The notes below the pieces were generated by a model. The model was not told the origin of the DNA. It made no database searches and saw nothing but the letters and a program-made list of their open reading frames with translations. From IMG/VR virus record IMGVR_UViG_3300025030_000215, positions 1 to 41,885 of that record: DNA of 41,885 bases. One strand, 5' to 3'. This document shows, piece after piece, positions 1 through 37,177 of this stretch (its first letter is position 1; every line of letters starts with the position of its first letter). The position numbers and the translations under genes were made by a program. The stretch comes from a virus.

Positions 1-101
1 AAAGCTTCCAAGATTCTTTCGTATTCTTTTGTGATAAAAACTTCTCCGTCAAAGCAGCCTCGCGCAATCTGCTCGTTTGACTTCTCAGGCCGTTCCATCA
101 T
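1..101 (-). CDS. 5' fragment of coiled-coil gene (duplicate of 39653-40222)
   Basis: This is a partial gene cut by the window edge. Tandem ATG ATG codons end at 101, preceded by a GAGGGG ribosome-binding site, and the frame runs off base 1. The residues (MMERPEKSNEQIARG...) are identical to the N-terminus of the 189-aa protein at 39653-40222, because both lie in the 127-bp repeat. It is probably the same gene reached from the other side of an assembly junction, not a second copy. The function of the full-length protein is not recognised. Confidence 0.7.
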   Translation of the reverse strand, partial: MMERPEKSNEQIARGCFDGEVFITKEYERILEA

Positions 102-127
102 CCCCTCATTTCGTTTGCGGGTCAGGC
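1..127. repeat. Exact 127-bp direct repeat, copy 1
   Basis: The first 127 bases are identical to 40122-40248, and the match stops sharply at base 128 (left continues gtaaaaa, right continues ttcacta). A repeat of exactly 127 bases at a contig start is what a de Bruijn assembly with k=127 produces at a graph branch. It may therefore mark a junction shared by two alternative paths, not a biological terminal repeat. It spans the start of the coiled-coil gene and the last codons of the gene before it. Confidence 0.95.
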
Positions 128-216
128 GTAAAAATAACAGAGGTACACTTACACCAGCCCTCGATCGGACAATAAATATAAGGTTTTCCGCATTGAACGC
201 AGAATCTCTCGCTCAT
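106..216 (-). CDS. 36-aa cysteine-rich mini-protein
   Basis: The protein begins MSERFCVQCGKPYIYC and has five cysteines at residues 6, 9, 16, 22 and 24, so it probably binds zinc. The start follows AGAGGC in a short linker that resembles the 33-bp repeat at 586-618. Its last residues PDPQTK are encoded inside the 127-bp repeat and are the same as the end of the RNA ligase at 40227. Two unrelated genes thus share their final codons at the same junction. No function can be assigned. The small size, good ribosome-binding site and tight packing support a real gene. Confidence 0.6.
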   Translation of the reverse strand: MSERFCVQCGKPYIYCPIEGWCKCTSVIFTPDPQTK

Positions 217-239: not shown

Positions 240-590
240 TTAACCAACAAGCTCTTTTATTTTTTCTTCTCGTTCAAGAATTTCCGTTTTTAATTGCTCA
301 ATTTGTTTCTTCTTATTTTCTTCGGCTTCCTTGGCTTCACGTTCTTTTCTTAAATTCTCTGGCTCACTCGGAATCGCTGTGAAGAAAAGATTCCCTTTGC
401 TGGAAGGTTGAACCGTCATTCCATCAAATCCCATTCTTTTTCCAAGCTCAGCCCAAGCGTCATTGGCATTTTCCTGCTGACTTCTCGGCGTCCCAATGTG
501 AAGCATAATCATTGGAACCGGACTACACGCCTCAATTATCTTGTCGTAATCTTCCTGTGTCATTTCGTATTCAGTCCTTGGATAGTTCAT
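240..590 (-). CDS. Conserved phage protein, unknown function (116 aa)
   Basis: Residues 1-70 form a compact mixed segment (MTQEDYDKIIEA, MIMLHIGTPRS, DAWAELGKRMGFDGMTV) that I recall as a widespread but uncharacterised phage/prophage family. Residues 75-116 are a charged Lys/Glu-rich helix, likely a coiled coil. The start at 590 follows AGAGGC in the 33-bp linker repeat (586-618), so its ribosome-binding site is shared with the gene at 40831-41016. No catalytic motif is visible. Confidence 0.8.
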   Translation of the reverse strand: MNYPRTEYEMTQEDYDKIIEACSPVPMIMLHIGTPRSQQENANDAWAELGKRMGFDGMTVQPSSKGNLFFTAIPSEPENLRKEREAKEAEENKKKQIEQLKTEILEREEKIKELVG

Positions 591-754: not shown

Positions 755-1453
755 TCACAGCACACTCTGGCAAACAAAATCACAGCTTATTTTAGGCTCT
801 TTCGCTTCATGCCCACGGTCAGGGCCAAGTTCATCCAAAAAGGTTCCCTTGATGCAGGAATGGCCAACTTCACGCTCGATTAAAGCCATTCGGTTAAAGC
901 TTTCAGGAAAATGCTTCCTAACGTTATTCCAGTAGCCCATACCGCCCTTCACGCACCCAATACAGTTATTGTTATGAAAGCCAAGCAAATACATTTCAGG
1001 GACAGCAACCCCAACTTCCTTGATTAGGCCGATGCAGTTTTCTTTCGTCAGTCCTTTTTCGATCAGTGGAAACTTTGCGTTTACTTCTGGAAATGAGAGG
1101 CAAAACTTTTTCGCCCTATCTCTTTCTTCCACGGTATACCCGAAAATCTGAATATCATCTGGCTCTTGAAACTTAAACCTTTGAACCTTTTTTAATTCAA
1201 CAGTGCATCTTGCGCCGGAAGGCCCGTTTATATATTTTGTCTTTTGGCAAACGTCCATATGATCGGAATACTTTTCGCTCTTTAAAACCGTGACCTCTTT
1301 TCCAAGCCACCTTTCAACGTCTTTAAGAAACCGCTTGTTGTCTGGATGTTCGCCCCCTGTATCACAGTAAACGAGTAAAGCGTCTGGGGAAAGATAAGAG
1401 GCCACCGCAGAAGCGGCTCCGCAACTAAACCATGAAATAGTCCTCCTCTTCAT
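755..1453 (-). CDS. PAPS-reductase-like PP-loop protein
   Basis: The protein is 232 aa. The N-terminus has a PP-loop (SWFSCGAASA, residues 7-16) followed by a typical second strand (LLVYCDTGGEHPDN), as in the adenine nucleotide alpha-hydrolase / PAPS reductase superfamily, which activates a substrate by adenylation. A later Cys pair (NNNCIGCVKGG, about residues 160-170) could bind a metal or cluster. In phages such proteins are common; sulfur metabolism, tRNA thiolation and DNA phosphorothioation have all been suggested, and the sequence does not decide. GGAGG lies upstream of the ATG, at the end of the structured leader 1451-1591. There are no dnd-type neighbours. Confidence 0.85.
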   Translation of the reverse strand: MKRRTISWFSCGAASAVASYLSPDALLVYCDTGGEHPDNKRFLKDVERWLGKEVTVLKSEKYSDHMDVCQKTKYINGPSGARCTVELKKVQRFKFQEPDDIQIFGYTVEERDRAKKFCLSFPEVNAKFPLIEKGLTKENCIGLIKEVGVAVPEMYLLGFHNNNCIGCVKGGMGYWNNVRKHFPESFNRMALIEREVGHSCIKGTFLDELGPDRGHEAKEPKISCDFVCQSVL

Positions 1454-1591
1454 TCCCTTTTCTCCTCCCCGTTAAGGATTGTCTCGGTGGCAGGATTCTC
1501 TGCACGCTTTGAACCGTCATGGTAGCGACCCTCTATAGTGCCTTAGTAATTCAGCCACACCGAGACAACCGAACTAATTGCTAGGGCCGGG
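1451..1591 (-). promoter_or_regulatory. Paired-block leader element, copy 1
   Basis: Two blocks are nearly identical to the second copy at 41637-41803: an upstream block at 1554-1591 (37 of 38 bases) and a downstream block at 1451-1491 that ends in GGAGG and the gene start. The blocks contain perfect 11-bp complements (1558-1568 with 1479..1489), so the transcript could form a long stem presenting the ribosome-binding site. The 62 bases between the blocks differ from copy 2. In copy 2 one pair becomes G-U, which keeps the stem. It could be a structured leader or a recombination linker. Confidence 0.6.
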
Positions 1592-3322: not shown

Positions 3323-3963
3323 TTCTCGATTACCTGCGTTTTTTTGTTTTTAATAATCGCGTTGATGTAGCCGATATTGGCAATACCTCGGCCCACAGTC
3401 TGCTCAACCGCGAATTTAAAAAGAGTTTCGTCCGCGCAGCGGTCCCGGCTATTGACCAATTCAAGCAGCAAAGTCTGCTGCCGCTTCGAGGATAAAAGCT
3501 TGGTTTTGTTCTTAGAGGCGTTGATTTCGAGGTAGGCTTTTATTTTGTCTTGAAGGCCGTTAAAAGAAATCAGCAAATTGGAAATTTGCGATATTCTTTT
3601 ATCTTCTTCTTTATCTTTGTCTAATCTAATCTTATCTATATCTAGGCCGACATTTGTCGGACATTTGTCGGACAAAAACCCCTTATTTATCAAGGCTTTA
3701 AGTAGTAAATTTACATTTTTTGTGGAAACCTTGTAGCCATAGTCTCGATATAAATTAATTTCAAAAAAGTTTTCTTCGGGTATCTCGTTGCCATATTTTC
3801 GGGATAAATCCAAAATAATGAGCGGAAAAAACTTATCATCGTTCGGAAGGTCTTTCATCCAAGACTTATCAAACAATGCACCCCAAAGCTTGCACCATGG
3901 CAAATCCTTATCTTTCCGAGCCTGATACTTCTCCCAATTTTGAACACTAATTACTTTTTCCAC
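3319..3963 (-). CDS. Replisome-organiser-like protein, possible initiator
   Basis: Starting at GTG 3963, the 214-aa product begins MEKVISVQNWEKYQARKDKD, the kind of N-terminus found in phage replisome organiser / winged-helix replication proteins (residues 1-100), followed by a charged linker and a helical C-terminus. The longer frame to 4062 overlaps the upstream gene and its extra residues look non-coding, so I use the GTG, though its ribosome-binding site is weak. Bases 3647-3673 inside the gene contain tandem 11-bp repeats beside an AT-rich run, as in lambda gene O. No helicase loader or primase was recognised nearby. Confidence 0.65.
   Translation of the reverse strand: MEKVISVQNWEKYQARKDKDLPWCKLWGALFDKSWMKDLPNDDKFFPLIILDLSRKYGNEIPEENFFEINLYRDYGYKVSTKNVNLLLKALINKGFLSDKCPTNVGLDIDKIRLDKDKEEDKRISQISNLLISFNGLQDKIKAYLEINASKNKTKLLSSKRQQTLLLELVNSRDRCADETLFKFAVEQTVGRGIANIGYINAIIKNKKTQVIEK
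3590..3673. other. Candidate replication origin (iterons plus AT-rich run)
   Basis: Two perfect tandem copies of ATTTGTCGGAC lie at 3652-3662 and 3663-3673, preceded by a half site CCGAC that makes CCGAC-N4-GTCGG a palindrome. Next to them, 3590-3646 is an AT-rich run with strong purine/pyrimidine bias, containing TAATCTAATCTTATCTATAT. The 11-bp unit is not a multiple of three, so the copies encode different residues; selection on DNA rather than protein is implied. The layout resembles lambda ori inside gene O. Confidence 0.45.
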
Positions 3964-3977
3964 AAACCGCCATTTCT

Positions 3978-4262
3978 TTATTTTTTGAGCTTCCAGCGCC
4001 TGATAAGATGCCCGTGGCTTCGCGCATGGGTGGCGGCAGCGAAGCCGATGAATTCCCAACATTCGCCGGCAAAAATCGACCCGGTCCAGCCGCTTTTAAA
4101 CTCAATCTCCGGTAATGCCTGGCGCACTTCATCGACCGTGATCGACTCCATGTCTTTTGCGATCAATTTCGCCACGTTTTGGGCCAGTCTTAAATTCCCA
4201 AGGTTGGCGTGAGCCGCCAGAGACTTGCCTGATTGAGCGAAGTCAAGCTCGGTTTGGATCAT
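3978..4262 (-). CDS. Conserved phage protein, unknown (94 aa)
   Basis: The N-terminal half is helical (LRLAQNVAKLIAKDMESITVD) and the C-terminal half has a compact pattern (GWTGSIFAGECWEFIG, ATHARSHGHLIRRWKLK) that I recall from uncharacterised replication-region proteins of phages. The ATG overlaps the upstream stop (ATGA). The basic C-terminus could bind DNA. Its position directly before the replisome-organiser-like gene suggests a role in replication, not proven. Confidence 0.75.
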   Translation of the reverse strand: MIQTELDFAQSGKSLAAHANLGNLRLAQNVAKLIAKDMESITVDEVRQALPEIEFKSGWTGSIFAGECWEFIGFAAATHARSHGHLIRRWKLKK

Positions 4263-4486: not shown

Positions 4487-4791
4487 TAATCGCCTATCGT
4501 TCCGGCTTCTATTTGATACGTCGTTTGTTTCTGAACGCCGTGGCGAGTAATGCAGACATGATCATTTTTCTTAAATCTTCCGTCGTTTTCGTCAAAGGCT
4601 TCGATGAAAGATTGGTTACGTGTTTGCATGATCTGCGTCTTACCTTCGGGGGTCTTGAACTTGAACGAAGGAACTTCCTCCTGATTCTGGTTCAAGCTCA
4701 TAACGTAGCCGAGGTATTGCACGTTTATTGTTTCTCCATCCTCGATTTTCAAAAACTTACTGTTTTCTTTGGCCCATTGTTTAAGCGACAT
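4486..4791 (-). CDS. Possible OB-fold / DNA-annealing partner of the nuclease (101 aa)
   Basis: From ATG 4791 the protein starts MSLKQWAKENSKFLKIEDGE and continues with alternating beta-type segments (VQYLGYVMSL, SFKFKTPEGKT, DHVCITRHG). The spacing and its place right after a PD-(D/E)XK nuclease suggest a single-strand-binding or annealing role, but no diagnostic motif is visible. AAGGAG precedes the ATG; the TTG at 4797 is disfavoured. It overlaps the nuclease stop by 11 bases. Confidence 0.7.
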   Translation of the reverse strand: MSLKQWAKENSKFLKIEDGETINVQYLGYVMSLNQNQEEVPSFKFKTPEGKTQIMQTRNQSFIEAFDENDGRFKKNDHVCITRHGVQKQTTYQIEAGTIGD

Positions 4792-5653
4792 TTTCAATCT
4801 CCTTTTTTAAGGAAAGAATGCTCGGGAAAACGAATGTTTTGGGCTTAGCGTCTTTGTTTTTGCGTTCCCAAAGCGAAGCCGCCAGCCTATAATTTTCGTA
4901 GTCCTCTTGCATTTCTTCCTTGGTTCGGTACAACGTTGCTAATCCCTCGATTCCTTTTTTGGTGCTGGCCCCGGTGTGAAGGATTAGACTTCCGGTTATT
5001 TCACCACGGCCCATTTCTTCGATGCACTTGGCGTATGCCGCCGTTTGCATGAAAGCGTTATCATCGACTTGCTTGCCCGATTTGAGGTCTATCACGTAAC
5101 GGCCAGCGGGAAGCTCCAAGGCGGTCGCGCCGTTTACTTGGTACTTCCCCGCCTCAATATCCATAATGTTGTCAGCGGTCCCGGCATCCATGTGAGCGAG
5201 AGAGTAAACCGGAAGCTCGGAAGCGACCATTTTGGGTTTTACAATTTCCACCCATTTTTGGAGCTTCCAAACGTCCATCATTTCGTCTTGATAGCGCACG
5301 ATTTCGATATTCCCGGCGTACTCGGTCGCAATTTCGTCGATTTGATCAAGAGAATAATTTATTCTTTTGACGGGGTTATAAAGAACAGCTCCGCCAGTCG
5401 AAAGGGTATTCCAAGCACTGTGGATTCGCACGCCCCGCTCACAGGCTTCAAAAACCCGCATATCCGCTTCCCGGTTGCCAACGTCACCCCTCCACCGAGC
5501 CAAGAAAGGCTTGGCGATTATGTTTAATTTTGTGGTAACAGATGGAATGTAAATATCTACAGTTTTGTCAGGATCTTCCGGCGTGGTAAGAGAAATCTTG
5601 TACCAGTGGTCATCAAAAAACTCGATCATTTCGATAGCTTTGGTAGATTCCAT
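4781..5653 (-). CDS. PD-(D/E)XK nuclease, RecB/Cas4-like
   Basis: The protein is 290 aa. The signature is RGVRIHSAW (about residue 90), then GRYVIDLKSGK (Asp and DxK catalytic pair near residue 190), then QTAAYAKC (the QxxxY motif), the arrangement of the RecB/YqaJ-like PD-(D/E)XK superfamily. Phages use such enzymes as recombination exonucleases, usually next to an annealing protein. AAGGAG lies upstream of the ATG. N-terminal residues 1-80 look like the usual substrate-entry region. Exonuclease activity is inferred from family. Confidence 0.8.
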   Translation of the reverse strand: MESTKAIEMIEFFDDHWYKISLTTPEDPDKTVDIYIPSVTTKLNIIAKPFLARWRGDVGNREADMRVFEACERGVRIHSAWNTLSTGGAVLYNPVKRINYSLDQIDEIATEYAGNIEIVRYQDEMMDVWKLQKWVEIVKPKMVASELPVYSLAHMDAGTADNIMDIEAGKYQVNGATALELPAGRYVIDLKSGKQVDDNAFMQTAAYAKCIEEMGRGEITGSLILHTGASTKKGIEGLATLYRTKEEMQEDYENYRLAASLWERKNKDAKPKTFVFPSILSLKKEIENVA

Positions 5654-5926: not shown

Positions 5927-6126
5927 CGGTCACCATTTCTTTCTTCGACGGTATCAAATTCAGATTCTTTTTCGCGTTCTTCCAATGGCTCAATATCTTT
6001 GATTTCTGAATTCAAATAAGTTTCAGCTTGCATGTTGACTTCCGCGAGATCGCAAGCCTCGTCTTGATCGTTGGCGTAGACTTCTTGTTCATGCGTTTCA
6101 GTCCAGCGAATCAGGTATTTTTTCAT
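5923..6126 (-). CDS. Small acidic protein, unknown (67 aa)
   Basis: The N-terminus [20 protein letters not shown] resembles the short beta-hairpin start of many small phage proteins; the rest is highly acidic ([13 protein letters not shown]). Coupled by ATGA overlaps on both sides. No known domain is recognised. Confidence 0.7.
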
Positions 6127-6773
6127 TTTTCTACCCCCGCATAAATTTCAGGAAGAAGCGCCACGAATTCATCAATCCAAAAAACCACGGTTTTGGCAAC
6201 TTGATTATTTTTAGGGGTGTTACCCTCTTTAATTGCAAGGAAAAATCTTTCGGCGGGACGATCAGCATCTGGCGCAAGCCCTTTGATTGCTTTAAAATCG
6301 CATTTTTTAGCGTTTGCAATCGTTCCAACGAGACACGCACATTTCCCTTGATAGCTTGAGCCATCCACCTTTCCTTCAATGAGGGCTTGGCGCAAAGCCG
6401 GGACTTCTTTTGTGGCGTGAAGCAAGACATTCCAGAAATCGTTTTTAATAATCGAGAGATTGGCCCCCAAGAGATCGGCCCCCAAGAGATTGGCCCCCGA
6501 GAGATTGGCCCACGAGAGATTGGCCCACGAGAGATCGGCCCCCGAGAGATTGGCCCCCGAGAGATTGGCCCACGAGAGATTGGCCCCCGAGAGATTGGCC
6601 CCCGAGAGATCGGCCCCCGAGAGATCGGCCCACGAGAGATTGGCCCCCGAGAGATTGGCCCCCGAGAGATTGGCCTCCGACTTAATCGCCGCCTCTACCG
6701 CAAATCTCCAATTTTCAGCCTCAACCGAAAAAATAAGTTTACCAGACCATCGATTTTTAATTTCGAATTTCAT
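6123..6773 (-). CDS. Pentapeptide-repeat protein
   Basis: Residues 34-105 are about 14 tandem pentapeptides of the form A(N/D)LSG or A(N/D)LSW, which fold as a right-handed quadrilateral beta-helix. Residues 106-216 form a different domain ([34 protein letters not shown]) often seen behind such repeats in phages. Some pentapeptide proteins mimic DNA and protect gyrase, but nothing here fixes the function. The DNA of the repeat is an almost perfect 15-bp satellite, which could change length by slippage. The start overlaps the upstream stop (ATGA). Confidence 0.8.
6455..6680. repeat. 15-bp minisatellite in the pentapeptide gene
   Basis: The plus strand shows tandem 15-base units GAGAGATTGGCCCCC with few substitutions (ATT/ATC, CCC/CAC). 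Near-identity at the DNA level suggests recent expansion and makes copy number prone to change between phage relatives. It also creates false open frames on both strands, which I have not annotated. Confidence 0.85.
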
Positions 6774-7465: not shown

Positions 7466-7948
7466 TTAAACAATAAAAGGCACCACCCCAACGGCACAAA
7501 GGGCAATGCAGGCATCCTCAAGCATGACTCCCTTATCGCCGTATTTAGCAAAAGGATTGAGAACTCCAAAGAAAATACTCCCGGAAGCAGCTAAAATGAC
7601 CTGAAACACGCCTAACCCTATGTTCCCGGTCGAAATCCCGGCGAAAAGGCCTCCAAGACCAAGGGAGGCCCCATAAACACCCCGCAGAAGCACCTTTTTC
7701 CAGACTTTCCCGTCATTTACACCGTATTTGAACAGAATCAGGCTCGGGATGTACCAGCCTCCGGCCATGAGCGCGAAGATCCCAAAATGCCCGGAAAGGA
7801 TCGAAAGCAGGATCACGCCAGCGCCAAAGACGCCGGCTCCAAGGAAGCGTCTTACCCATTTACCTATTGACGATTGACCTCCTAGAGCATAACATATACA
7901 GAAGAACGAAACTAAAAATACTTTAAAAACTAAGAGCAAAATACTCAT
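7466..7948 (-). CDS. Multi-pass membrane protein, unknown (160 aa)
   Basis: Most of the sequence is hydrophobic, with about five likely membrane segments ([73 protein letters not shown]). It might be a holin, a superinfection-exclusion or an envelope protein; no family is clear. GGGAGG lies 8 bases before the ATG. The start codon overlaps the ATG of the divergent HNH gene (7946-7949), so their 5' control regions lie inside each other. Confidence 0.75.
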
Positions 7949-8528
7949 GAGAAAAACCCTCCCTGTTTGTGAAATTTGTAAAAAAAGTTACGGACCAAAA
8001 AAAGGCGGCGGTTACAATAAAAGATTTTGTTCCAAAGAATGTCTCTATGAAGCATTTAAAGGCCATGGTCATCCTCATTTTAAAAATGCGAGGACTTACT
8101 CTCATGGTTATGTCCTCATCTCAAGAAAAGGAAGAGTTTGGCCAGAGCATCGATGGATAATGACCGAATACCTTGGCCGTATTTTGAAAAATAGCGAGCA
8201 CGTTCATCATATAAACGGAATGAAAGATGATAATCGAATCGAAAATCTTGAAATTCTTGATATAAAAGATCACGGACGACTTCATAGAAAAAAACCCAAA
8301 AAACCAACAACGCGGCCGTCGCCAATCTCCCAAGGCATGACATGGATAGATGTAAAAAACGATTATCGATCATACCTGGTTTACAGATGTCAAAATTGTT
8401 CACGGTTATGGTGGTCAAGAAAAGATCATTCTTCAAAATTCTGTTCTTCCAAATGCCTCGAAATCGCAACAGGTTATTGCAAAACTCTGGTTAAATCGCA
8501 CCGATGGAATAAAATTAGAAAATATTGA
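7947..8528 (+). CDS. HNH homing-type endonuclease with zinc fingers
   Basis: The 193-aa protein has an N-terminal zinc finger (CEICKKSYG...FCSKEC, residues 8-32), an HNH_3-type core ([32 protein letters not shown], residues 71-110) and a C-terminal zinc finger (CQNCSRLWW...FCSSKC). This is the plan of free-standing phage homing endonucleases. It is on the plus strand against its neighbours, uses a weak ribosome-binding site (AAGAG), and its last 14 bases overlap the end of the convergent gene. A possible promoter TTGACG-N17-TAACAT lies at 7867-7895. Confidence 0.9.
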
Positions 8529-16089: not shown

Positions 16090-17718
16090 CTATGGTAATC
16101 CAATCTGTTCTGAACGATCCGCCCACAAAGCAGCTTGCTCATCTCTGTCAGTCCATTTAAATGCAAACGAACTTGAAGAGCTAGACGATGAGCTGCTCGA
16201 ACTGCTCTTTGAACTCGAAGATGACGAGCTTGAGGAACTAGAACTGCTTGACCGCGAAGAACTAGAGGACGACGAAGACGATCTTGAAGAACTGCTAGAC
16301 CGCGACGATGAAGAGCTTGAGCTCGACGAAGAGCTCGATGAACTGCTCGATGATGAACTTCGCGAGCTGCTGGAAGAGCTGGAACTTGGAGCAGTCCAAT
16401 TCACAGTATTTGAATTCACGCCGCCGGAATTAGTTACCGAATTTCCTCCGCTAGAATCTATGTCTGTAGCAGTTACGCTCGAAACTGATTGGGTGCCAGA
16501 AATATTAAGAATTGCCCGGCTTCCCCCGGTAGTTGCGTCAAGAGTGCATGATGTAGCGGTAAATAATCCATTAACAATAAATGTTTGAGTAGATGTGAGA
16601 TGAATCGTCTTTCCTGAATTCATGGTTAAATTATTAAAAGTTGTCGCCCCAGATACGGTCGACGTTCCATTAAAAGCAACGGTAGAAGTGGATTCAACCC
16701 ACGTCCCTGTTTTTGTCCAGTTTCCATTTACCGTTATTGTTTTATTCCCGCCTCGTAATGTTCCCCCAGTATCAATTAAAAGATTATTATTGACCTGCAA
16801 ATTCCCGGTCAAAGTACAATCACCAGTAACTGTGAAATTATACCAAGGCATTACCCCAGAATTTACACTCATAGTAGTGATTATTTTAATAGTTGAAGTT
16901 CCAGGAACTATAGTTCCGGCTGTGTAGGTAAACGGGCCACCATTGCCTAAATGAATAGTGCCGGATAATGTTATAGTACCAGCGGTGTTTATAATAATAG
17001 GATGTCTATTTTCTCCCGTTCCCGCGTCACTCCATACTCCAGTACCATTTAATTGAATAACAGTTGTACCAGTTGCAGCTGCGGCTGTTGTAGCTGATTT
17101 CTTTAAATTAACATCAACAAGTAAAGTAGCTCCATTCATATCAACATTGTTAGCAGCTTTAATTAAATCTAAATCCGCTAACTCATAAGTTCCAGCTGCC
17201 CAAGTTATGCTAGTACCACCTGAATTTGTGGCATCCCCCTCAAAATTATAAATAGATTGACTACCTAATGTAATTGTTGCTGCAACGGCATCAACCCGTA
17301 ATGTAAAAGTTCCAGCGTTAAAGGTAGTATTAGCCCCGGATATATTGAAATGCCCTCCACACTGCATAAGACTTGTTCCCATATTTATAGTTTTAGTTCC
17401 ACTTCCAGAAGCATCGAGCTCATCAACATTTACAGCATGGTTTCCAGTTGTCCATGTTCCTCCATTCATTGTAAATTTAGCGGTCCCGCTTGTAATATTA
17501 AGCGTTGCCGATTGCGTAATGGTCCCTGTATAGCCTGTAGTGTCCAAACTATTGATGTTTGTGGTAATGTCCCAAGTACAATTTTTATTGGGGGTAGCGC
17601 CTGTTACTCCATCAAAAATAATAATATCACCGGCAGAAGGCGCGGAACCTCCGTCCCAATTAAGGCCAGTAGAAGCCAAATTATCTGCTCCGGAACCAAC
17701 CCATTTAAGAGTAGCCAT
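16090..17718 (-). CDS. Beta-helix adhesin with poly-Ser/Arg segment
   Basis: The 542-aa protein has residues 1-445 made of short Gly/Thr/Asn-rich strands (GTITQSATLNITSGTAKF, INMGTSLMQCGG, FTYTAGTIVPGTSTIKI), the texture of beta-solenoid adhesins. A tract of about 75 residues follows, almost all Ser with scattered Arg and one Lys. The last 23 residues carry WTDRDEQ and WADRSEQ, related to the C-terminal repeats of the next-upstream protein. TAATG overlap with that gene. Likely a surface fibre whose Ser tract is a flexible, possibly glycosylated stalk. Confidence 0.7.
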   Translation of the reverse strand: MATLKWVGSGADNLASTGLNWDGGSAPSAGDIIIFDGVTGATPNKNCTWDITTNINSLDTTGYTGTITQSATLNITSGTAKFTMNGGTWTTGNHAVNVDELDASGSGTKTINMGTSLMQCGGHFNISGANTTFNAGTFTLRVDAVAATITLGSQSIYNFEGDATNSGGTSITWAAGTYELADLDLIKAANNVDMNGATLLVDVNLKKSATTAAAATGTTVIQLNGTGVWSDAGTGENRHPIIINTAGTITLSGTIHLGNGGPFTYTAGTIVPGTSTIKIITTMSVNSGVMPWYNFTVTGDCTLTGNLQVNNNLLIDTGGTLRGGNKTITVNGNWTKTGTWVESTSTVAFNGTSTVSGATTFNNLTMNSGKTIHLTSTQTFIVNGLFTATSCTLDATTGGSRAILNISGTQSVSSVTATDIDSSGGNSVTNSGGVNSNTVNWTAPSSSSSSSSRSSSSSSSSSSSSSSSSSSSRSSSSSRSSSSSSSSSRSSSSSSSSSSSSSSKSSSSSSSSSSSSSFAFKWTDRDEQAALWADRSEQIGLP

Positions 17719-19199
17719 TAGGGCAACACGCTTTCGGCTCTATCACTCCATGATCCACTTTGTTCGGCGCGGTCACTCCAAGACCCGGATTCGTCTGTCC
17801 TGTCGCTCCACGATCCGCTTTGCTCAGTCCGATCTCGCCACACGAATGCACTCGAACTTGATGAAGACGAAGAGCTTGATCGTGAAGAACTTGAACTCGA
17901 AGAGGACCGGCTACTGGAACTCGATGAAGACACACTGCGGGACGACGAGCTAGAAGACGATGATCGGCTCGAGCTTGACGAAGAACTTGAACTACTGCTC
18001 GAAGAGCTGGATCGGCTACTCGATGAAGATGACGATGACCGGCTACTTGACGACGACGAACTGCTAGATTTTGAGCTAGATGACGATGAGGATGACGAAC
18101 TACTCGATCGAGAGGAACTCGAACTGGAAGATAACGAAGAACTACTACTCGAAGACGAACTAGATCGACTACTGGATGAAGATGAACTTGAAGAACTCCT
18201 GCTGCTTGAGCTTGAACTGCTGGAACTAGAGCTGGAAGATCTCGAGCTACTTGAAGATGAACTGCTTGAAGAACTGCTCGACGAGGATCGGCTACTTGAG
18301 GATGAACTGCTCGATCGCGAAGAACTGCTTGAGCTAGATCGAGATGATGAACTTGAAGAACTTCTACTAGACGAAGATGACGATGAGCTGCTCGAACTCG
18401 AGGACCGGCTACTACTGGACGAACTACTGCTCGAGCTACTTGACGAACTGCTGGAACTGCTTCGCGAGCTTGAGCTCGATGAGGACGAACTTCGCGAACT
18501 GCTGGATGAACTTGAGCTTGACTTTGAGCTACTTGAGGATGACCGAGAACTCGAGGACGAAGACGAAGATGATGAACTGCTGGAAGAAGAACGAGAACTG
18601 GAGCTAGAAGAAGATGACGATACTCCAACACTTTCTGAAAGAAAGTTGTCTCCACGCGTTTGTCCTCTTTGTCCAGTAATTCCGGCGAAATTATTCCCGG
18701 TTAAAACATCATCAGCGCTTGAAATTCTTTCAACGCCTGCTAAATAAACCTTTTTTGCCGCTGTACGAATCTCAAGTTTTATAGTTACTGGCAAACCAAC
18801 AGCCTCAATATTTGCGTCATAACTTCCAAGATTTGTACGGCTTGCGGCGACAACTTTATCAAGCGCAATATCCATCGTTCCGCCAGCATCACCAACGCCG
18901 TATGCCTGATAAGAATTACTAACCCCAGTCTCACCGCTTGGAACCCTCGCAGTGACACCAAATCGTTCGCCCGTATTGTCAGCATGCGTAACAATATCAA
19001 TAGAAACGTCCATATCGTCGTCGCCAATATCATCCGTCTTCGCGACAGCAACAACGGTCGTGCCTTCAGCCTTTGCTGAATTGTCATCTGCTTCTACTAT
19101 AAAAGTTGTTCCATTCCAAGCGGCCCCAACATTTGGTGTGTGGGATTCAAGAGCCGTATCTGAGGCTTCCGTAAAAGCGTCTTGTCCGACTGTAGCCAT
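17718..19199 (-). CDS. Poly-Ser/Arg stalk protein with N-terminal beta domain
   Basis: Residues 1-190 look like a beta-sandwich of the LamG/concanavalin type (FIVEADDNSAKAEGTTVVAV, LPVTIKLEIRTAAKKVYL). About 260 residues follow that are Ser with an Arg every 7-18 residues and a few Lys, Leu or Val. The last 40 residues contain four copies of a W-x-D-R-x-E/D-Q/E-S-G unit. Ser is encoded by mixed AGY and TCN codons, so the tract is not a simple DNA repeat. The stop overlaps the next start (TAATG), placing both stalk proteins in one unit directly after the glycosyltransferase genes. Confidence 0.75.
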   Translation of the reverse strand: MATVGQDAFTEASDTALESHTPNVGAAWNGTTFIVEADDNSAKAEGTTVVAVAKTDDIGDDDMDVSIDIVTHADNTGERFGVTARVPSGETGVSNSYQAYGVGDAGGTMDIALDKVVAASRTNLGSYDANIEAVGLPVTIKLEIRTAAKKVYLAGVERISSADDVLTGNNFAGITGQRGQTRGDNFLSESVGVSSSSSSSSSRSSSSSSSSSSSSSSSRSSSSSSKSSSSSSSSSRSSSSSSSSSRSSSSSSSSSSSSSSSSSSRSSSSSSSSSSSSSRSSSSSSSRSSSSSSSRSSSSSSSSRSSSSSSSSSSSSSSSRSSSSSSSSSSSSSRSSSSSSSSSSRSSSSSSSSSSLSSSSSSSRSSSSSSSSSSSSKSSSSSSSSSRSSSSSSSSRSSSSSSSSSSSSSSSRSSSSSSSSRSVSSSSSSSRSSSSSSSSRSSSSSSSSSSAFVWRDRTEQSGSWSDRTDESGSWSDRAEQSGSWSDRAESVLP

Positions 19200-28718: not shown

Positions 28719-29765
28719 TTAAGCCGTAGCCGAGCTTGAACTACTGCTCGAGCTGGAGCTGGATCTTGAACTGCTGGAAGAACTCGAACTGGACGAAGAG
28801 CTGCTGCTTGAGCTGGACGACCGGCTCGATGAAGACGAGCTGGACGAACTGCTGGAAGAGCTGCTGCTGGACGACCGGCTAGAGCTGGACGACGAAGAAC
28901 TCGATCTACTCGACGAACTCGAGGAACTGCTGGAAGAACTCGACGAACGGCTACTACTCGAAGAACTCGAACTTGATCGGCTCGATGAACTCGAAGAGCT
29001 TGAACTGCTTGACTGACTCGAAGAAGACGACGAACTACTCGAAGACGAGCGTGAAGAACTGCTCGAAGATTGGCTTGAAGAGCTGGACGAAGAGCTAGAC
29101 GAAGACTGGCTAGACGACGAACTCGAGGATGAACTCGAAGACGATCTGCTCGACGAACTCGAGGAAGACGACGAGCTGGAAGACGAACTCGAAGACGAGC
29201 TGGACGACGAGCGCGACGACGAACTAGAACTCGAAGAGGAAGAACTTGAAGCCTCTACAACGTCCGTGATCCCGTAAAGCGAAAAATAATCGGTATCAGT
29301 CAGAGTTCCGTCAGCGTCGCAAGCATCGAGGACATTATTGAATTTGTCCACGAATTGATCCAGAAAATCCACGATGGCATCCAGATAATACCCATGCGTT
29401 TTCGCACGGGCATTGGCGACATCCATAAGATTCGCCGTCGCCGCAAACTTCTCTGTCGTAAAGATCGTTGTTCCTGCTACACCATCATCATCATTGATCG
29501 CATCCAACGCATCGTTGAAATTCGTCCTGAGATTTTTGCAGATTGTTACAAGATCGCCGGTCGGCAGGGCGCGTCCAGATAAAGCCCGGCGGGATTCGTT
29601 CCCGATAGAAGGCGTTGGAACGTCATAATCGTTATGCCAAGTGGTGTCTGCTGTATCAACGTCAAGTTTCAAGAGAAATGCGTTCCAATTCTCAATGCAT
29701 TCCTCAAGGAGCTTGAAAATACCGCCAAACCAGGCACCTCTTTTTTTTAAATCATCGTAACCCAT
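28719..29765 (-). CDS. Poly-Ser/Arg protein with helical N-terminal domain
   Basis: Residues 1-170 are a compact mainly helical domain (MGYDDLKKRGAWFGGIFKLL, HGYYLDAIVDFLDQFVDKF, DGTLTDTDYFSLYG). Residues 172-345 are almost all Ser with isolated Arg and a few Gln, ending ATA. The protein follows the major capsid gene, so the N-terminus may dock on the head while the Ser tract extends outward. It differs from the other two Ser proteins in its N-terminal domain and lacks their C-terminal W-x-D-R repeats. Mixed Ser codons keep it from being a simple satellite. Confidence 0.7.
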   Translation of the reverse strand: MGYDDLKKRGAWFGGIFKLLEECIENWNAFLLKLDVDTADTTWHNDYDVPTPSIGNESRRALSGRALPTGDLVTICKNLRTNFNDALDAINDDDGVAGTTIFTTEKFAATANLMDVANARAKTHGYYLDAIVDFLDQFVDKFNNVLDACDADGTLTDTDYFSLYGITDVVEASSSSSSSSSSSSRSSSSSSSSSSSSSSSSSSSSSRSSSSSSSSSSSSQSSSSSSSSSSSQSSSSSSRSSSSSSSSSSSQSSSSSSSSSSSRSSSSSSSSSRSSSSSSSSSSSSSRSSSSSSSSSRSSSSSSSSSSSSSSSSSRSSSSSSSSSSSSSSSSSSRSSSSSSSSSSSATA

Positions 29766-29791
29766 TTGATCCCCCTAATAATTAAGAGGAA

Positions 29792-29813
29792 GGCGGGGGT
29801 TGGTTCCCCCGCC
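29792..29813 (-). terminator. Intrinsic-terminator-like hairpin after the capsid gene
   Basis: A perfect 8-bp GC stem (GGCGGGGG / CCCCCGCC) with a 6-base loop, followed on the minus strand by TTCCTCTTAATTATT. The U-run is imperfect, so partial termination is likely; it would make capsid mRNA more abundant than the genes behind it. Confidence 0.5.
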
Positions 29814-29837
29814 CCCTCCTCATTGGTTATCAGGCGA

Positions 29838-30848
29838 TTAAGAAGTGGTGGCTACGTCTGACGCGCAATTCATTGTGATCACGCCGTAGTCAACAGCATT
29901 GAACATGGGTTTAATGCAGCCGAAGATAGCTCCGACTGAGATACCCCATTGATTGCCGTAGTCGAAAGACTTCTCGACCCACGCAACCGTAGCACCCCAG
30001 GCAATGACTCCAGCTTGCTGGCCGCAAAGCACATTTCTTGCGACCTGAGCGGAACCAGATCCGTCATTGGTCCGGTAAACATATTCGTGTTCATGGACAA
30101 CGATTCCATTCCAAATACCAAGGGCTCCAGTAAAAATCGGGTTATCTTCCCCACGGACATTGGCGTCCCTCTGAGCTTGCGCCCAAACAGGGTCTTGACG
30201 CAGATTCGTCGCGTCATACGGGTGGAGAATAGCCACGTAATACGGTTTCCCGTTCACACGGACAGGCTTGACCTTCGGGCTTGCGAGAATCGCAGTCTGC
30301 TTGGCAAGATCAAGGACCTTGGTATCCATTTTCATGGCCGTGGTGATTGCACCAATGGATGCCGCACCGCCGGCGTAAATGGCACGCGAAGTCGCGGCCG
30401 CCGTAGGCGTGTTGGCGAACGTGGCGGTTGTTTTCCCGCAAAGCTTATCCAAGAGCTCCTGGTCGATACGTTCAGCCCACCAGTCTGTGAGCCTGTTTTT
30501 TGCCGACATACGCATGTCATAAACATTGCGCTTTTCGTCAAACTTCCCGGTCAAAAGAACGCCGTGACGTAGCTGATTGATCGCGACATCTTCATCGTAA
30601 TCAGTCATTGTTTCTTCTGAACCTTCCAAAGCCGAATCTCCGGTAGTTCCGGCCGCAGTAAGCTTCATTCCGAGCCCGAACGAAATACTCGTCCCCTTTT
30701 CTTTCTTCAGGTCTTCAAGTTCCTGAATCATGCTTTGTTCCGGACTACCGATGAAACGGGTCATATAAAGATTGTCCCGGACATCCGCAAAAAGCGCCTT
30801 GCGCCAGAGTTCTGGCCGAAGGGCTGAATTACTCGCTGAAGCTGCCAT
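29838..30848 (-). CDS. Major capsid protein, N4-gp56 family
   Basis: From ATG 30848 (AGGAG upstream) the 336-aa protein starts MAASASNSALRPELWRKALF and has the N4-gp56 family pattern: GTSISFGLGMKLTAAGTTGD, WWAERIDQELLDKLCGK, VNGKPYYVAILHPYDATNLR, WAQAQRDANVRGEDNPIFTG, GIWNGIVVHEHEYVYR. The longer frame to 30899 reads through a terminator hairpin and is rejected. This family is found in capsids of several podovirus-like groups. It is framed by terminator-like hairpins on both sides. Confidence 0.85.
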   Translation of the reverse strand: MAASASNSALRPELWRKALFADVRDNLYMTRFIGSPEQSMIQELEDLKKEKGTSISFGLGMKLTAAGTTGDSALEGSEETMTDYDEDVAINQLRHGVLLTGKFDEKRNVYDMRMSAKNRLTDWWAERIDQELLDKLCGKTTATFANTPTAAATSRAIYAGGAASIGAITTAMKMDTKVLDLAKQTAILASPKVKPVRVNGKPYYVAILHPYDATNLRQDPVWAQAQRDANVRGEDNPIFTGALGIWNGIVVHEHEYVYRTNDGSGSAQVARNVLCGQQAGVIAWGATVAWVEKSFDYGNQWGISVGAIFGCIKPMFNAVDYGVITMNCASDVATTS

Positions 30849-30884
30849 TGTGTTTCTCCTGTTTGATCTTTTTTTCCAACAAAA

Positions 30885-30923
30885 AAGGCGAGGTCCCACG
30901 TTTTCACGTGAAACACTCGCCTT
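30885..30923 (-). terminator. Intrinsic terminator upstream of the major capsid gene
   Basis: An 8-bp stem AAGGCGAG / CTCGCCTT encloses an inner CACG/CGTG stem and is followed on the minus strand by TTTTTTG. It lies between the scaffold and capsid genes, so either it tunes the scaffold:capsid ratio or the capsid mRNA has its own promoter nearby. Confidence 0.7.
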
Positions 30924-30949
30924 AGCTAAGGACTTCTTCTGCTGGTTAT

Positions 30950-30970
30950 CCCCGAATGATCAGTTCGGGG
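30950..30970 (+). terminator. Hairpin CCCCGAA/TTCGGGG, plus-strand oriented
   Basis: A 7-bp stem with 7-base loop is followed by TTTTAAATTT on the plus strand only. It may stop antisense transcripts or serve as an RNA-processing stem just after the scaffold gene. Confidence 0.4.
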
Positions 30971-30982
30971 TTTTAAATTTGT

Positions 30983-32065
30983 TTATGCGCCGTAAAGTTT
31001 TAAGTATTTATTCCGGACATTCCGGGGGAGTTTCGAGAACTCAATATCTGACATGGAAGTTATCTCCTCCATCGAGAGTTCTTCTGCCGGCTTACCTTCC
31101 CGGCTTGAGACATGAGCTGTCGTTTTTGAGAGGTTTGCGTTTTCTTCAAGGGCCTTTTCGGCTTGCTTGGCTTGGTCTTCCTTCGCCTTTTGTTCAGGCG
31201 TTTTCTCAACTTCAACGGGGGCTTTTGCCTCCGGTTTATCTTTTCCGGTGCGCGCTTTCACTCTTACTTCAGCGGCCGGTAGAAGGATTTCGAAATCTCT
31301 GTGTTTCTTGATCATTTCGTACATCACGATTGCAGGATTTTCTCCCAACTTTACACGCTCCCCAATTTCTGAAAGAGCACGGCTGTCATCCGTTATAAGT
31401 TCGTCAGCAAGTTCAATCACCGTGTCAAAATCAGCATGAGTCTCGCGGGCTTCCTTTTCGCAAAGCTGGAGATATTTGACATTCGTTCCCTGGCTCCTAA
31501 GCGTCGAAGTGTCATCAGCGTTTTTGATGGCCTCTTTTTTCTTTAAGATTTCGCGTGCTTCTTTAACCGTCAGGAAATCATCGTCTTCTCTGCCGTCAAG
31601 AGGGTCTTTAACAGGCTCTGCGGCCTTCTCTTGCTTAGCTTTTGTTTCTCGGAAAATAACCTGATCACGCTCAGACTCAGCCTGCTGTCTAAGTTTCCGG
31701 TCCCGGCGCATCCGGTGAAAGTAAGCCTTTTCCCGAGGAGTGAAGTCGGTAAGATTCTCTTTACCTTCCGGCTTCTCCATTTCACGTTCAAGCTTTTCAA
31801 AGAAATCTTCTTTCGCCGCTGGCTCAGCCGTCTTTTCTTCCTTCTTTTCTTCAGGCTTCTCGATCTTCACCGGCTCATCTGTTTTTTCGTCTTCAACCAA
31901 AACAGGACCGCCTTTATAACCGTCAGGAGCAGGCATATCCTTCATCATTTCTTCCTGTTCAACCTTGCTCATGTCGCGGACAGAAGGCTTTTCGGCCTTT
32001 TCTTTTTGTTCCGGTTTTTCCTTCGGTTCTTTCTTTTCAGCTTTTTCTTTCGCGGCTGTTGTCAT
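30983..32065 (-). CDS. Capsid scaffolding protein
   Basis: The 360-aa protein is extremely charged and helical (long Glu/Lys runs in residues 1-140, EELSMEEITSMSDIEFSKLP at the end) and lies between portal and major capsid genes, the usual place and composition for an internal scaffold. GAGAGG precedes the ATG. No protease domain is visible, so the scaffold is probably released intact, as in P22. Confidence 0.75.
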   Translation of the reverse strand: MTTAAKEKAEKKEPKEKPEQKEKAEKPSVRDMSKVEQEEMMKDMPAPDGYKGGPVLVEDEKTDEPVKIEKPEEKKEEKTAEPAAKEDFFEKLEREMEKPEGKENLTDFTPREKAYFHRMRRDRKLRQQAESERDQVIFRETKAKQEKAAEPVKDPLDGREDDDFLTVKEAREILKKKEAIKNADDTSTLRSQGTNVKYLQLCEKEARETHADFDTVIELADELITDDSRALSEIGERVKLGENPAIVMYEMIKKHRDFEILLPAAEVRVKARTGKDKPEAKAPVEVEKTPEQKAKEDQAKQAEKALEENANLSKTTAHVSSREGKPAEELSMEEITSMSDIEFSKLPRNVRNKYLKLYGA

Positions 32066-32075
32066 ATAAATCCTC

Positions 32076-33941
32076 TCAGGCTTTGCCTGTGGCTTGCGCA
32101 GCGGCCATCATCTGCGCTTGGTTTTGTGCTATTTTCTGTTTTACTTCCTCAGAATTCGGAAGGTCCATGTAGTCAATAATCAAATCAAGCGGGATGGCAG
32201 GTCCAAACACCTTCCCAAGCTCGGTCAAATCCTGGAATATTTCATACCGAATCGTTTTGTTCTGGTCGGCCTCACTCACGAACACGTCGTACTTATTGTC
32301 TTCGACCATCTGGAGAAATGCTGCGATATGCCCAGACGTAAGCCCTTGCGGATACCGCTCCGGGTCAACCGCTTTTTGCATGTATTGAGGACCCAAAACC
32401 TTCAAGACCTTCTTCTCGTCAAATAGCTTGGGCGTCATTTCGAGGATAAACTGTCCGACAATCTCTTTTGAGTAACGGTAATTGTGGAAAATCCGGACAA
32501 GCGACATGATTGCCTGCTTGATTCGCAGGGAGATGGCCCGACCGGAAGAGGTGTTTTCCTGAAAACCCATAAGGTCAGGGTTGACGCCCGAAATCTGCTT
32601 AAATTCATCATCAGCTTCCTTTTCGCGCTGAAGATGCCCGATGTTCGGGCCTTTCGGAAGGATTTCACGAAGATCCGAACCTCGCTTCTTTTTAATCGTA
32701 ATCCCGGGTTTTGCCCCCATATTCTCAAGATTTTTCCAACCTTCAGGTGTGAGCGCGTCTTCATCACCCACCCATCCTGAGTTTGCCTGTGTGTTCAAAA
32801 TGTGAAGTGTTTGCGACTTGGATTTGTTCTTCTCTCGCTGTGCGTCTTTCAGGCTCCGGACCACACCCTGAACCTTCAGTTCTTCAGTCTCAGCTGATGG
32901 CACCCAATCAGCCAGAAACCGGAAGAACGGAAGCCCGGAATAGAACGGCTCAAAAGGGCTTTTCTCATCCTGTACTACAAACCCGCCGACATACGCTGCC
33001 ACCCATATTTCCGGGACCTTCCGAGGCACAACCTTTGCCCCGCCTTGGGTCCCACTGAAAGCTTCAGCCTCGTCTTTTTTGTCAAACCGCTTCGGCTCCC
33101 CGGATTCGGTATCAATCACAAAATACCGCTCCACCATCTTCGGGCGCCAGTATTCCTTGACCGTAAATTTCTCGTCTTTCTTGAGGCCACTTTCATCGTC
33201 AGCTTGCGTCTTTTTTACAATCGTTGTCACATTCGGACGATTCCCGTAGTCATCATCCGAGCCTTCGTACAACAGCCCGCCGCCATTCTCAACCTGGTCA
33301 TCGGAGTCAGCCATAAATCCGTCGATCAATTTTGAAAACTTAGGGTAAATCTCTTTTAAAACTTCCTTCGTGAACCGGACGCACTTAAACAGGTATTGCG
33401 CCCGCGGCCATTCGTTCAGGTCGTACTCGTTGAAATCGGGGTCCACGAGGATCTGATAGGGTGAGCGCTGCAAGAACCGAAGCTCCCCGCGGATAGGGTC
33501 GCTTTCATGGGTCAGCACAGCTTCCAGCCAGCCCTTGCCGGTATAAAGGCCATCATCGAACCAATACGCCATTTTGTAGGCCATGTGGGAGGTTTTATCG
33601 ATGTGCTTCAAGAGCCGGTCCATCACCTCAGAAAAAATCTTGTCTTCCCCTCCTTCAGGGTTGACCTTAATCCTGGACGAGTTCTCACGCTGATACCCTG
33701 AAATGAGATTGATGAGGGGCTTGATCCGGTTGAAAGTCATTGCCGGACGGCTCTCATTCTTGAGCGTTTGAAGGTCTTCTGAAGTCCATTGGTCACCCAA
33801 TGCAAAAGCAAGATCCTCTTTTGCAATATCCTCCCAATCCTTCATATTCTTTTTGGCATAGTCAAAGCGGGTCTTGATTTCATGGCGAAGATCGTCATGC
33901 TCCATCAGAGGGTCGGAAGAGGCGGATTTCATTTCAGGCAT
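32076..33941 (-). CDS. Portal protein, P22-like
   Basis: The 621-aa protein has the phage P22-type portal pattern: KTRFDYAKKNMKDWEDIAKE, LALGDQ-type start (FALGDQWTSEDLQTLKNESR), PAMTFNRIKPLINLISGYQR, KGWLEAVLTHES and a central WVPSAETEELKVQGVVRSLK. It forms the dodecameric ring through which DNA is packaged. ATG overlaps the upstream stop (TAATG). The length is close to other portals of this family. Confidence 0.85.
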   Translation of the reverse strand: MPEMKSASSDPLMEHDDLRHEIKTRFDYAKKNMKDWEDIAKEDLAFALGDQWTSEDLQTLKNESRPAMTFNRIKPLINLISGYQRENSSRIKVNPEGGEDKIFSEVMDRLLKHIDKTSHMAYKMAYWFDDGLYTGKGWLEAVLTHESDPIRGELRFLQRSPYQILVDPDFNEYDLNEWPRAQYLFKCVRFTKEVLKEIYPKFSKLIDGFMADSDDQVENGGGLLYEGSDDDYGNRPNVTTIVKKTQADDESGLKKDEKFTVKEYWRPKMVERYFVIDTESGEPKRFDKKDEAEAFSGTQGGAKVVPRKVPEIWVAAYVGGFVVQDEKSPFEPFYSGLPFFRFLADWVPSAETEELKVQGVVRSLKDAQREKNKSKSQTLHILNTQANSGWVGDEDALTPEGWKNLENMGAKPGITIKKKRGSDLREILPKGPNIGHLQREKEADDEFKQISGVNPDLMGFQENTSSGRAISLRIKQAIMSLVRIFHNYRYSKEIVGQFILEMTPKLFDEKKVLKVLGPQYMQKAVDPERYPQGLTSGHIAAFLQMVEDNKYDVFVSEADQNKTIRYEIFQDLTELGKVFGPAIPLDLIIDYMDLPNSEEVKQKIAQNQAQMMAAAQATGKA

Positions 33942-34183
33942 TAGTTCATCCCAACGGCTTGCTCTTTTAAAGTCCTGAGCGGCACGCCGTTTATTGACAT
34001 TAAGCTTTCATCGAGTGACGTATTTTTATCAATTCGCGGAATTCCCATTCGGCACCTGCACATCATCAACTGTTTTGCAACCTCTGGAAGCGCGGCAAGT
34101 GGTAACGTGATCTCGGCCAAAAACCGGCCATCTGTTTGACACTCAGGGCAACGCATACGAATCAGCATCATCGGGACCTGCAT
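33941..34183 (-). CDS. Small protein with CxxC motif between terminase and portal (80 aa)
   Basis: MQVPMMLIRMRCPECQTDGR carries CPEC, with another Cys pair (CRCRMG, residues 42-44) downstream, so a small zinc ribbon is likely. It starts immediately after the terminase stop (TAAATG). The location suggests a packaging or head-assembly helper; similar small genes occur here in related phages. An internal ATG at residue 5 or 6 is possible. Confidence 0.65.
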   Translation of the reverse strand: MQVPMMLIRMRCPECQTDGRFLAEITLPLAALPEVAKQLMMCRCRMGIPRIDKNTSLDESLMSINGVPLRTLKEQAVGMN

Positions 34184-35569
34184 TTAAGCCGCCATTGCGC
34201 TTTTAGCGCCGAGTGACACCTCTAGAGGTCTAGAATCATCCGCCCAGGCGTCTTTGTGCTTCACCGGCTCAGTGTCTTTTAGAGCGTATTGCCCCATAAC
34301 GAAGGTGTCAGCTTGGTCAGGACTCCTGCCAAGGCGCTTCTTTGTCTCTTCTTTGGGCTCGAGCTGGATCCTACCGTTGGAATTGACAACCTTGAAGCGA
34401 ACAGCGGTAAGTTGACGGCGCAATTCTTCGTCTTCAGGGAAGGGAATTTTCTTATCCTGAATCTGCTGCATCGTGTACCACCACATTTCGGCCCGAGTGT
34501 TGAAGAAAGCCTCTTCATCCCTTGCAGTCTCTGAAGAATTGATGACGTTTACCCTTGAATTTGGTTTCACTTCCCGGATCCTAGCGGCGATTGCCGCCCC
34601 GAGCCCGCCGGAATAATCAATGTCAAAATAAGGTGTCTTGAATTGATTGGCCGACACGATCATTTCCCCGGCGATTGTCATCGGGTTCCGCTCATGCAAA
34701 ACCTTTTCGTTCATCACCCGCCCGTTTTCGATGTCCTGAATCGGGCAATCATCCCCGCCAAGAGAAGGATCACAAGAAACAATCCGGCGTATTTCTTTAG
34801 CGTAATGGTTTACCCCTTTCAAAGCGTTCAACATCAAGTCTGTAATGAGTGTGTTCGTCGCCTGAAGCGAGAACCAGTCACCGTCCCGGTAAGCTTTGAG
34901 AAGGGCTTCGTTGTACTTAAAAACAGTTTCAAGGCGCTCCTGGTAATTCGAGGGCAAATGCGGGTTGTCCGTGTAAAGCGCCGGCACGAACTTATGATTC
35001 AAGAGCTGATTGTCGATGAAGTCTGTTTTAAGCCAACAATCCGCGGGGTTAGCCGTGTAAAGCTCCTTATAAGGCGGCTGCTTGCCGTTTATCTTGAGCC
35101 GGAGCGCAGCGCGGAGCACGCTCACTTCCTGCCTCTCCGTTTCCTCTGCCTGATTAACCGCAAGAAACGCCAAATTCGCAGAATTAAACTTCTCAACCCT
35201 CTTCGGATCATCTAATCCTCCGCAAAAAACCTTCGCTGTCTCATGAAAAATGATCTCATGCTCATCGTTATGCAGCCGGTAATGATCAGCCGGTATCACC
35301 TTCTTGAACTCCCCGAGCGTCGTATCCCGGAAGTCAACGGACCGCTTACGACCGACAAACCCGAGCGCGATCGGGTCCTTTGAAGGCTTTAAATCGAAGA
35401 ACTGAATCAAATGCTCAACCCAACACTTCACCCAAACGCAAAAGAGAAAGTCCTTTCCTCCGCCTTTCGCGCCACCATAAAGCAATGAAAGGTCGTTAGG
35501 ATCAGTCAGAAGCCGAAACGCTGTCGACTGCTTCGAGGTCAGCTGAACTTTGACTTCTTTGGTTTCCAT
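34184..35569 (-). CDS. terL: Terminase large subunit
   Basis: From ATG 35569 the 461-aa product has the ATPase P-loop LLYGGAKGGGKDFL, a Walker B region (LAFLAVNQAEETE), and nuclease-domain acids in CDPSLGGDD, YFDIDYSGGLGA and SPDQADTFVMGQYAL. It pumps DNA through the portal and cuts at headful or cos sites. The Walker B acid region (NQAEE) is slightly unusual. The TTG at 35581 is less likely. It overlaps the upstream gene by 68 bases. Confidence 0.9.
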   Translation of the reverse strand: METKEVKVQLTSKQSTAFRLLTDPNDLSLLYGGAKGGGKDFLFCVWVKCWVEHLIQFFDLKPSKDPIALGFVGRKRSVDFRDTTLGEFKKVIPADHYRLHNDEHEIIFHETAKVFCGGLDDPKRVEKFNSANLAFLAVNQAEETERQEVSVLRAALRLKINGKQPPYKELYTANPADCWLKTDFIDNQLLNHKFVPALYTDNPHLPSNYQERLETVFKYNEALLKAYRDGDWFSLQATNTLITDLMLNALKGVNHYAKEIRRIVSCDPSLGGDDCPIQDIENGRVMNEKVLHERNPMTIAGEMIVSANQFKTPYFDIDYSGGLGAAIAARIREVKPNSRVNVINSSETARDEEAFFNTRAEMWWYTMQQIQDKKIPFPEDEELRRQLTAVRFKVVNSNGRIQLEPKEETKKRLGRSPDQADTFVMGQYALKDTEPVKHKDAWADDSRPLEVSLGAKSAMAA

Positions 35570-35774
35570 CGTTGCTATCAAGAATCACCGTGAAATGGGT
35601 GTGAAATTCTGGGCGTGTTTTTGAGTCATCTCGATTGAAAATTTGAAGCATTGAAATTGCTACGCGTATCTTTGTGCCGTCTTTGAACTTAGAAAAATTA
35701 GTTCTCAGATATTCATAGCTCAATTCGTAAAGGCTTTGCCGCTCGATCGTTTCCTTTTTAGACAGCCTTGCCAC
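35502..35774 (-). CDS. Possible terminase small subunit (90 aa)
   Basis: From GTG 35774 (GAAAGG upstream) the product MARLSKKETIERQSLYELSY... is helical and polar with a Ser/Asp-rich tail. Its position immediately before the large subunit is where a DNA-recognising small subunit is expected, but it is short and no helix-turn-helix is clear. The 68-base overlap with terL is unusual; I rate the gene as likely and the function as open. Confidence 0.5.
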   Translation of the reverse strand: MARLSKKETIERQSLYELSYEYLRTNFSKFKDGTKIRVAISMLQIFNRDDSKTRPEFHTHFTVILDSNDGNQRSQSSADLEAVDSVSASD

Positions 35775-35868
35775 AAAGAACCTTTCCGCAGCGGGCGCAG
35801 ACTTCCTCGCCTTCAAGCGTCATTAAAACGTGATTCCCCTCGTTCTTGCCGTCAGGGGCAATACACAT
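35758..35868 (-). CDS. 36-aa zinc-binding mini-protein
   Basis: MCIAPDGKNEGNHVLMTLEG plus EEVCARCGKVLCGKAV has a CxxC and a later Cys, so one zinc site. Its ATG overlaps the upstream stop (TGATG) and its end overlaps the next gene by 17 bases, in the same tightly coupled style as the rest of the operon. Confidence 0.55.
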   Translation of the reverse strand: MCIAPDGKNEGNHVLMTLEGEEVCARCGKVLCGKAV

Positions 35869-36050
35869 CAGCCGTTCATGCCTTTTCCAACGTTGTAGGA
35901 CCCACCTTTGGGGGTTGGGTACTTCTCGCCGGCGCTTTCAACCCCGACGTGAATAGCTTTATTTCCGCCGTTTTTTGTTACGGGCGCGCTCTTGGCGTCA
36001 TACTTCGAGGAACTTTCAAGTGTTGCCATGTCATTGGTTTCTTTAGGCAT
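35868..36050 (-). CDS. First gene of the late operon, unknown (60 aa)
   Basis: MPKETNDMATLESSSKYDAK... is a polar, Gly/Lys-rich and probably disordered protein. AAAGGAG lies 7 bases upstream. It follows promoter 36187-36215 and terminator 36081-36114. Function unknown. Confidence 0.7.
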   Translation of the reverse strand: MPKETNDMATLESSSKYDAKSAPVTKNGGNKAIHVGVESAGEKYPTPKGGSYNVGKGMNG

Positions 36051-36080
36051 TGTGGATCTCCTTTTGGGTGTAAAAATAAA

Positions 36081-36114
36081 AGCCCGCTTAAAGTTATTAG
36101 ACTTTAAACGGGCT
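36081..36114 (-). terminator. Intrinsic terminator between late promoter and late genes
   Basis: AGCCCG-c-TTAAAGT pairs with ACTTTAA-a-CGGGCT (one mismatch, 6-base loop) and is followed on the minus strand by TTTTATTTTTA. Placed 70 bases after the promoter at 36187-36215, it would stop most late transcripts unless antiterminated; it also ends the right-arm operon. Confidence 0.8.
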
Positions 36115-36124
36115 GCATAGACTC

Positions 36125-36164: not shown

Positions 36165-36186
36165 AGATTTAAGGGTTTCTGCTTAG

Positions 36187-36215: not shown

Positions 36216-36234
36216 AATAATAAATAAAATTTTC

Positions 36235-36417: not shown

Positions 36418-36420
36418 TTT

Positions 36421-37159: not shown

Positions 37160-37177
37160 TCCAATTCTCCTTTTTAG

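Follow-up and report, generated by a model that had tools for sequence, protein, structure and literature searches.

Organization of the window and its two arms

The window analysed here comprises all 41,885 nucleotides of the IMG/VR virus record IMGVR_UViG_3300025030_000215, and nearly all of its genes are carried by the minus strand. Exact sequence comparison bore out the original prediction that bases 1-127 equal bases 40122-40248 and that the two copies diverge in one step, since identity is lost immediately at 128 and 40249 (GTAAAAATAACAG versus TTCACTAAACTTTT). A search of the whole record revealed no site of the 127-mer beyond these two. Other long exact repeats are not found in the window, except for a 15-nt tandem array near 6453-6680. 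This array, which consists of about 15 copies, lies within the gene at 6123-6773, the protein product of which has pentapeptide-like repeats.

The stretches that follow the first and the second copy of the 127-nt repeat are referred to as arm 1 and arm 2, respectively, and the sequence outside the arms is referred to as the body. The features of the arms and of the adjoining body are as follows.

1-127, minus-strand coding: first copy of the repeat (fork node), carrying, besides PDPQTK-stop at 106-127, the 33 initial codons of the gene found in full at 39653-40222
106-216, minus strand: arm 1 gene 3, a 36-aa cysteine-rich ORF ending in PDPQTK
240-590, minus strand: arm 1 gene 2, 116 aa
755-1453, minus strand: arm 1 gene 1, a phosphoadenosine phosphosulfate (PAPS) reductase-like protein (phrog_424)
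1447-1591, minus strand: leader of arm 1, composed of a variable loop between two conserved halves, 1554-1591 and 1447-1493
2245-2655: NinG/Rap-like gene, adjoining the variable locus
4781-5653: phage exonuclease gene, adjoining the variable locus
39653-40222, minus strand: 189-aa gene, the first of the shared genes downstream of the fork, with its 5' end repeated at 1-101
40122-40248: second copy of the repeat (fork node), identical to the first
40227-40844, minus strand: arm 2 gene 3, an RNA ligase (PF09414, phrog_548), 205 aa from an MSE start and ending in PDPQTK
40831-41016, minus strand: arm 2 gene 2, a 61-aa cysteine-rich ORF
41094-41639, minus strand: arm 2 gene 1, an MT-A70 family DNA methyltransferase (PF05063, phrog_359)
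41633-41803, minus strand: arm 2 leader, with the same architecture as the arm 1 leader
41804-41885, minus strand: end of arm 2, with no counterpart elsewhere in the window

In both arms, the gene upstream of the junction terminates in PDPQTK-stop within the repeat, as had also been predicted; the genes concerned are the arm 1 ORF at 106-216 and the arm 2 RNA ligase at 40227-40844. The order of transcription is leader, PAPS reductase-like protein, 116-aa protein and 36-aa protein in arm 1, and leader, MT-A70 methylase, 61-aa protein and RNA ligase in arm 2. Comparison of the two arms revealed that their proteins are unrelated. The 116-aa protein of arm 1 has no match in Pfam or PHROG.

The 127-nt repeat as an assembly node

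Analysis of both ends of 20 other IMG/VR contigs revealed terminal direct repeats of exactly 127 nt in five of them and of 123 and 121 nt in two more; none occurs in the other 13. In the contig 3300037851_000840, the 127-mer found at the end (1-127) recurs at 3893-4019 over exactly 127 nt and then diverges, which is the same assembly signature as in the window. Simulations in the COBRA study revealed that metaSPAdes leaves end sequences of maximum-k length at graph breaks (PMC10914622). The overlap in the window is as long as k, with k (127) taken from the other contigs of the collection and not from the assembler of this record. Because the length is shared with the collection and agrees with the COBRA result, the repeat is a graph node with two continuations, and the notion of a k = 127 assembly node that had been put forward for this DNA is thereby supported. 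The 127-mer is also the single branching node in a local k = 127 graph of both joins, as follows by construction.

The window and the overlaps described for COBRA (PMC10914622) are alike in that a branch of the graph gives rise to an exact overlap with a length of k. In contrast, the second copy in the window lies inside the contig, because the path would have circled a loop before taking the other branch, and a test for end-to-end circularity consequently misses it. Contigs of this type evade end-overlap circularity tests and inflate gene content; they could be mined for gene swaps within populations.

Other origins of the repeat were discarded. Its length and its match to k rule out chance. 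A terminal repeat of a linear phage genome is ruled out by the position of the second copy, 1.6 kb inside the contig. Origin from a tRNA gene or att site was rejected, as no tRNA was found and the repeat covers coding sequence.

The contig IMGVR_UViG_3300002460_000588 (11,202 bp) corresponds to window positions 40447-29246 with 100% identity (11202/11202 positions). It crosses the 127-nt repeat and proceeds for 199 nt into arm 2. Because it reads through the repeat in this way, the join between the body and arm 2 is real, as judged from assembled sequence; the contig is a separate one, which does not necessarily derive from independent reads. The end of this contig at 29246 adjoins a serine-rich stretch. 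Very long serine-rich, low-complexity stretches, made of S runs with scattered R, K or Q residues, are found at 16090-19199 and 28719-29765 in the structural gene region.

Searches of public records with the terminase, the gene below the fork, the exonuclease and NinG retrieved no record running from the body into arm 1, so the evidence for closure of the loop comes from this contig only. The same searches revealed no near relative other than the 11,202-bp contig, and a scan of bacterial genomes with the terminase gave no match. If 40248 is joined to 128, a circle of 40,121 bp results, and such a circle is likely, albeit not proven. It is the simplest reading, since it restores the gene truncated at the left end, leaves gene direction unbroken and has a size that suits a phage whose portal, as encoded in the window, falls in PHROG 156. 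We take PHROG 156 to be the P22-like portal family, and such a portal would presumably go with headful packaging and a circularly permuted genome of around 40 kb.

Boundary sequences shared by the arms

Five boundary blocks are common to both arms and occur in the same order, namely the 127-mer, the starts of genes 3 and 2, and the two halves of the leader. The four blocks beyond the repeat are the following.

207-223 and 40835-40851, minus strand: gene 3 start, 17/17 nt exact
586-618 and 41012-41044, minus strand: gene 2 start, 33/33 nt exact
1447-1493 and 41633-41679, minus strand: 3' half of the leader, with the ribosome-binding site and the start of gene 1, 43/47 identical
1554-1591 and 41766-41803, minus strand: 5' half of the leader, 37/38 identical

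Exact matches within these blocks measure 17, 33, 20 and 17+20 nt and are collinear at gene boundaries (207/40835, 586/41012, 1450/41636 and 1554/41766). When the arms were shuffled (500 trials), the longest common block averaged 11 nt, with a maximum of 18 nt, and blocks of at least 14 nt occurred at 0.03 per pair. Between the arms, the homologous blocks thus agree in order and in orientation. On account of this collinearity, arms 1 and 2 are best read as alleles of one locus, in which the gene block appears to have been swapped at gene boundaries.

The original prediction, in which 40249-41885 was a second version of 128-1668, gains four further collinear blocks from this comparison, and its extent is refined, since the arms cease to be homologous at 1591/41803, short of 1668/41885. 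The last 82 nt of the window (41804-41885) match nothing else in it; arm 2 consequently does not rejoin the loop within the contig, the end of which may precede the point of rejoining. The stretch over which the arm 2 variant differs from the loop may therefore be longer than first assumed, or the variant may be another phage sharing only part of the body.

The two leader halves may pair as a 13-bp stem (GGUUGUCUCGGUG with CRCCGAGACAAUC), and the enclosed loop has 62 nt in arm 1, as against about 87 nt in arm 2. The stem immediately precedes the ribosome-binding sites of two unrelated genes, and a stem of equal length arose in 7 of 2000 shuffles of the leader halves. The leader folds are not more stable than shuffled sequence (z of -0.77 and -0.48), and a single pair changes on both sides between the two copies with pairing kept. 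No match to the leader was obtained in Rfam at the gathering score. Relatives were not found by the exact stem pattern in viral and genome contigs, by a fuzzy scan of the collected loci, or by a covariance model run on 0.89 Mb. An integron-like attC site was rejected, because its consensus ends did not fit on inspection. With only two alleles at hand, the hairpin remains a lead, and it is doubtful that the leader represents an undescribed family of hairpins that function as RNA or DNA, either controlling the swapped operon or serving as its exchange point.

Interpretation of the fork

The observations would be accounted for if the window were one path through a de Bruijn graph (k = 127) built from the population of a tailed phage. 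The phage genome, which is probably circularly permuted, would assemble as a 40,121-bp loop (1-40121, with 40248 closing to 128). The population would offer two continuations at the fork node, arm 1 or arm 2, and the assembler would have traversed the loop a single time before leaving it through arm 2, where the path stops at 41885. We regard this explanation, taken as a whole, as highly probable. The two arms likely originate from two strains, although what the 127-nt node itself demonstrates is a fork, not two strains.

The same node would be produced by a true repeat of at least 127 nt, and the length of the overlap consequently does not decide between one genome and two. Both arms may accordingly reside in one genome, as two operons in tandem that arose by a true duplication of at least 127 bp, with the contig a correct linear piece of that genome. 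A contig starting at such a repeat would feature the same 127-nt overlap, collinear blocks are also expected from a tandem duplication in which the gene bodies were later replaced, and the 11,202-bp contig is equally compatible with this arrangement. However, a tandem requires a further copy of the gene at 39653-40222, at least of its 5' end, together with a piece of genome absent from the contig. If 40248 joins 128, no additional sequence is called for by the genes at the left end. The window shows no sign that any body gene is duplicated, and we consider it unlikely that both arms lie in one genome.

That arm 2 never rejoins the loop, its last 82 nt being foreign to it, would also be explained if arm 2 came from a different phage that has only part of the body (29246-40248 or more) in common with the first and departs from it after the fork, the contig being a chimera of two relatives. 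The 11,202-bp contig, in which identity begins only at 29246, would fit such a relative, but its end is near the serine-rich repeat region and its extent therefore says little. Moreover, the common leader and the gene-start blocks persist for 1.5 kb past the fork, as in alleles of one locus, which makes a chimera of two relatives decidedly unlikely. Conserved boundaries flanking variable gene bodies are likewise a feature of programmed switches, in which invertible or recombinase-driven cassettes would swap the arms within one lineage. Yet the arms are in direct orientation, inverted repeats of at least 31 nt were not found in the window, and no integrase, invertase or reverse transcriptase was identified among the proteins scanned, which represent part of the ORFs. 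A switch of this kind is extremely improbable.

Under the preferred reading of a population fork, the record probably consists of a circular phage genome of about 40 kb, extended at its end by another version of one gene block. For curation, it is better treated as what is probably a circular phage genome of 40.1 kb together with an alternative branch of 1.6 kb; we advise against treating it as a 41.9-kb linear genome with both gene sets.

In the two arms, unrelated gene bodies are bordered by short conserved sequences at gene boundaries; at the level of sequence, this arrangement is the pattern of module exchange at such borders. Phage mosaicism of this type has been discussed (PMC3029335), and traces of recombination at mosaic edges have been described (PMC3945230). 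As in these systems, the exchanged bodies are unrelated, and the sequences between which they lie are short, conserved and located at the starts and ends of genes; in contrast, the window features the alternatives within one assembly, not between isolates, and recombination would be their presumed cause. Variable genomic islands in virus populations break short-read assemblies (PMC6487183), and they resemble the window in that the assembly graph forks where one locus has alternative gene contents. Unlike these islands, the window has only a short three-gene operon, the boundaries of which are resolved to the base. The phenomenon is an assembly artefact on top of real, ordinary phage mosaicism.

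The nin genes form an exchangeable chain in lambdoid phages. The variable operon of the window is similar to the nin region in that it adjoins a NinG/Rap-like gene, but no other nin gene was identified, and the phage sequence is far from lambda. The NinG/Rap-like gene and the exonuclease could conceivably be involved in the exchange.

Two further genes of the window were recorded. An HNH endonuclease gene (PF13392) maps at 7947-8528 on the plus strand, amid minus-strand genes, and is likely a mobile insertion. At 37875-38144, a Phd/YefM-like antitoxin scores slightly below the Pfam cut-off.
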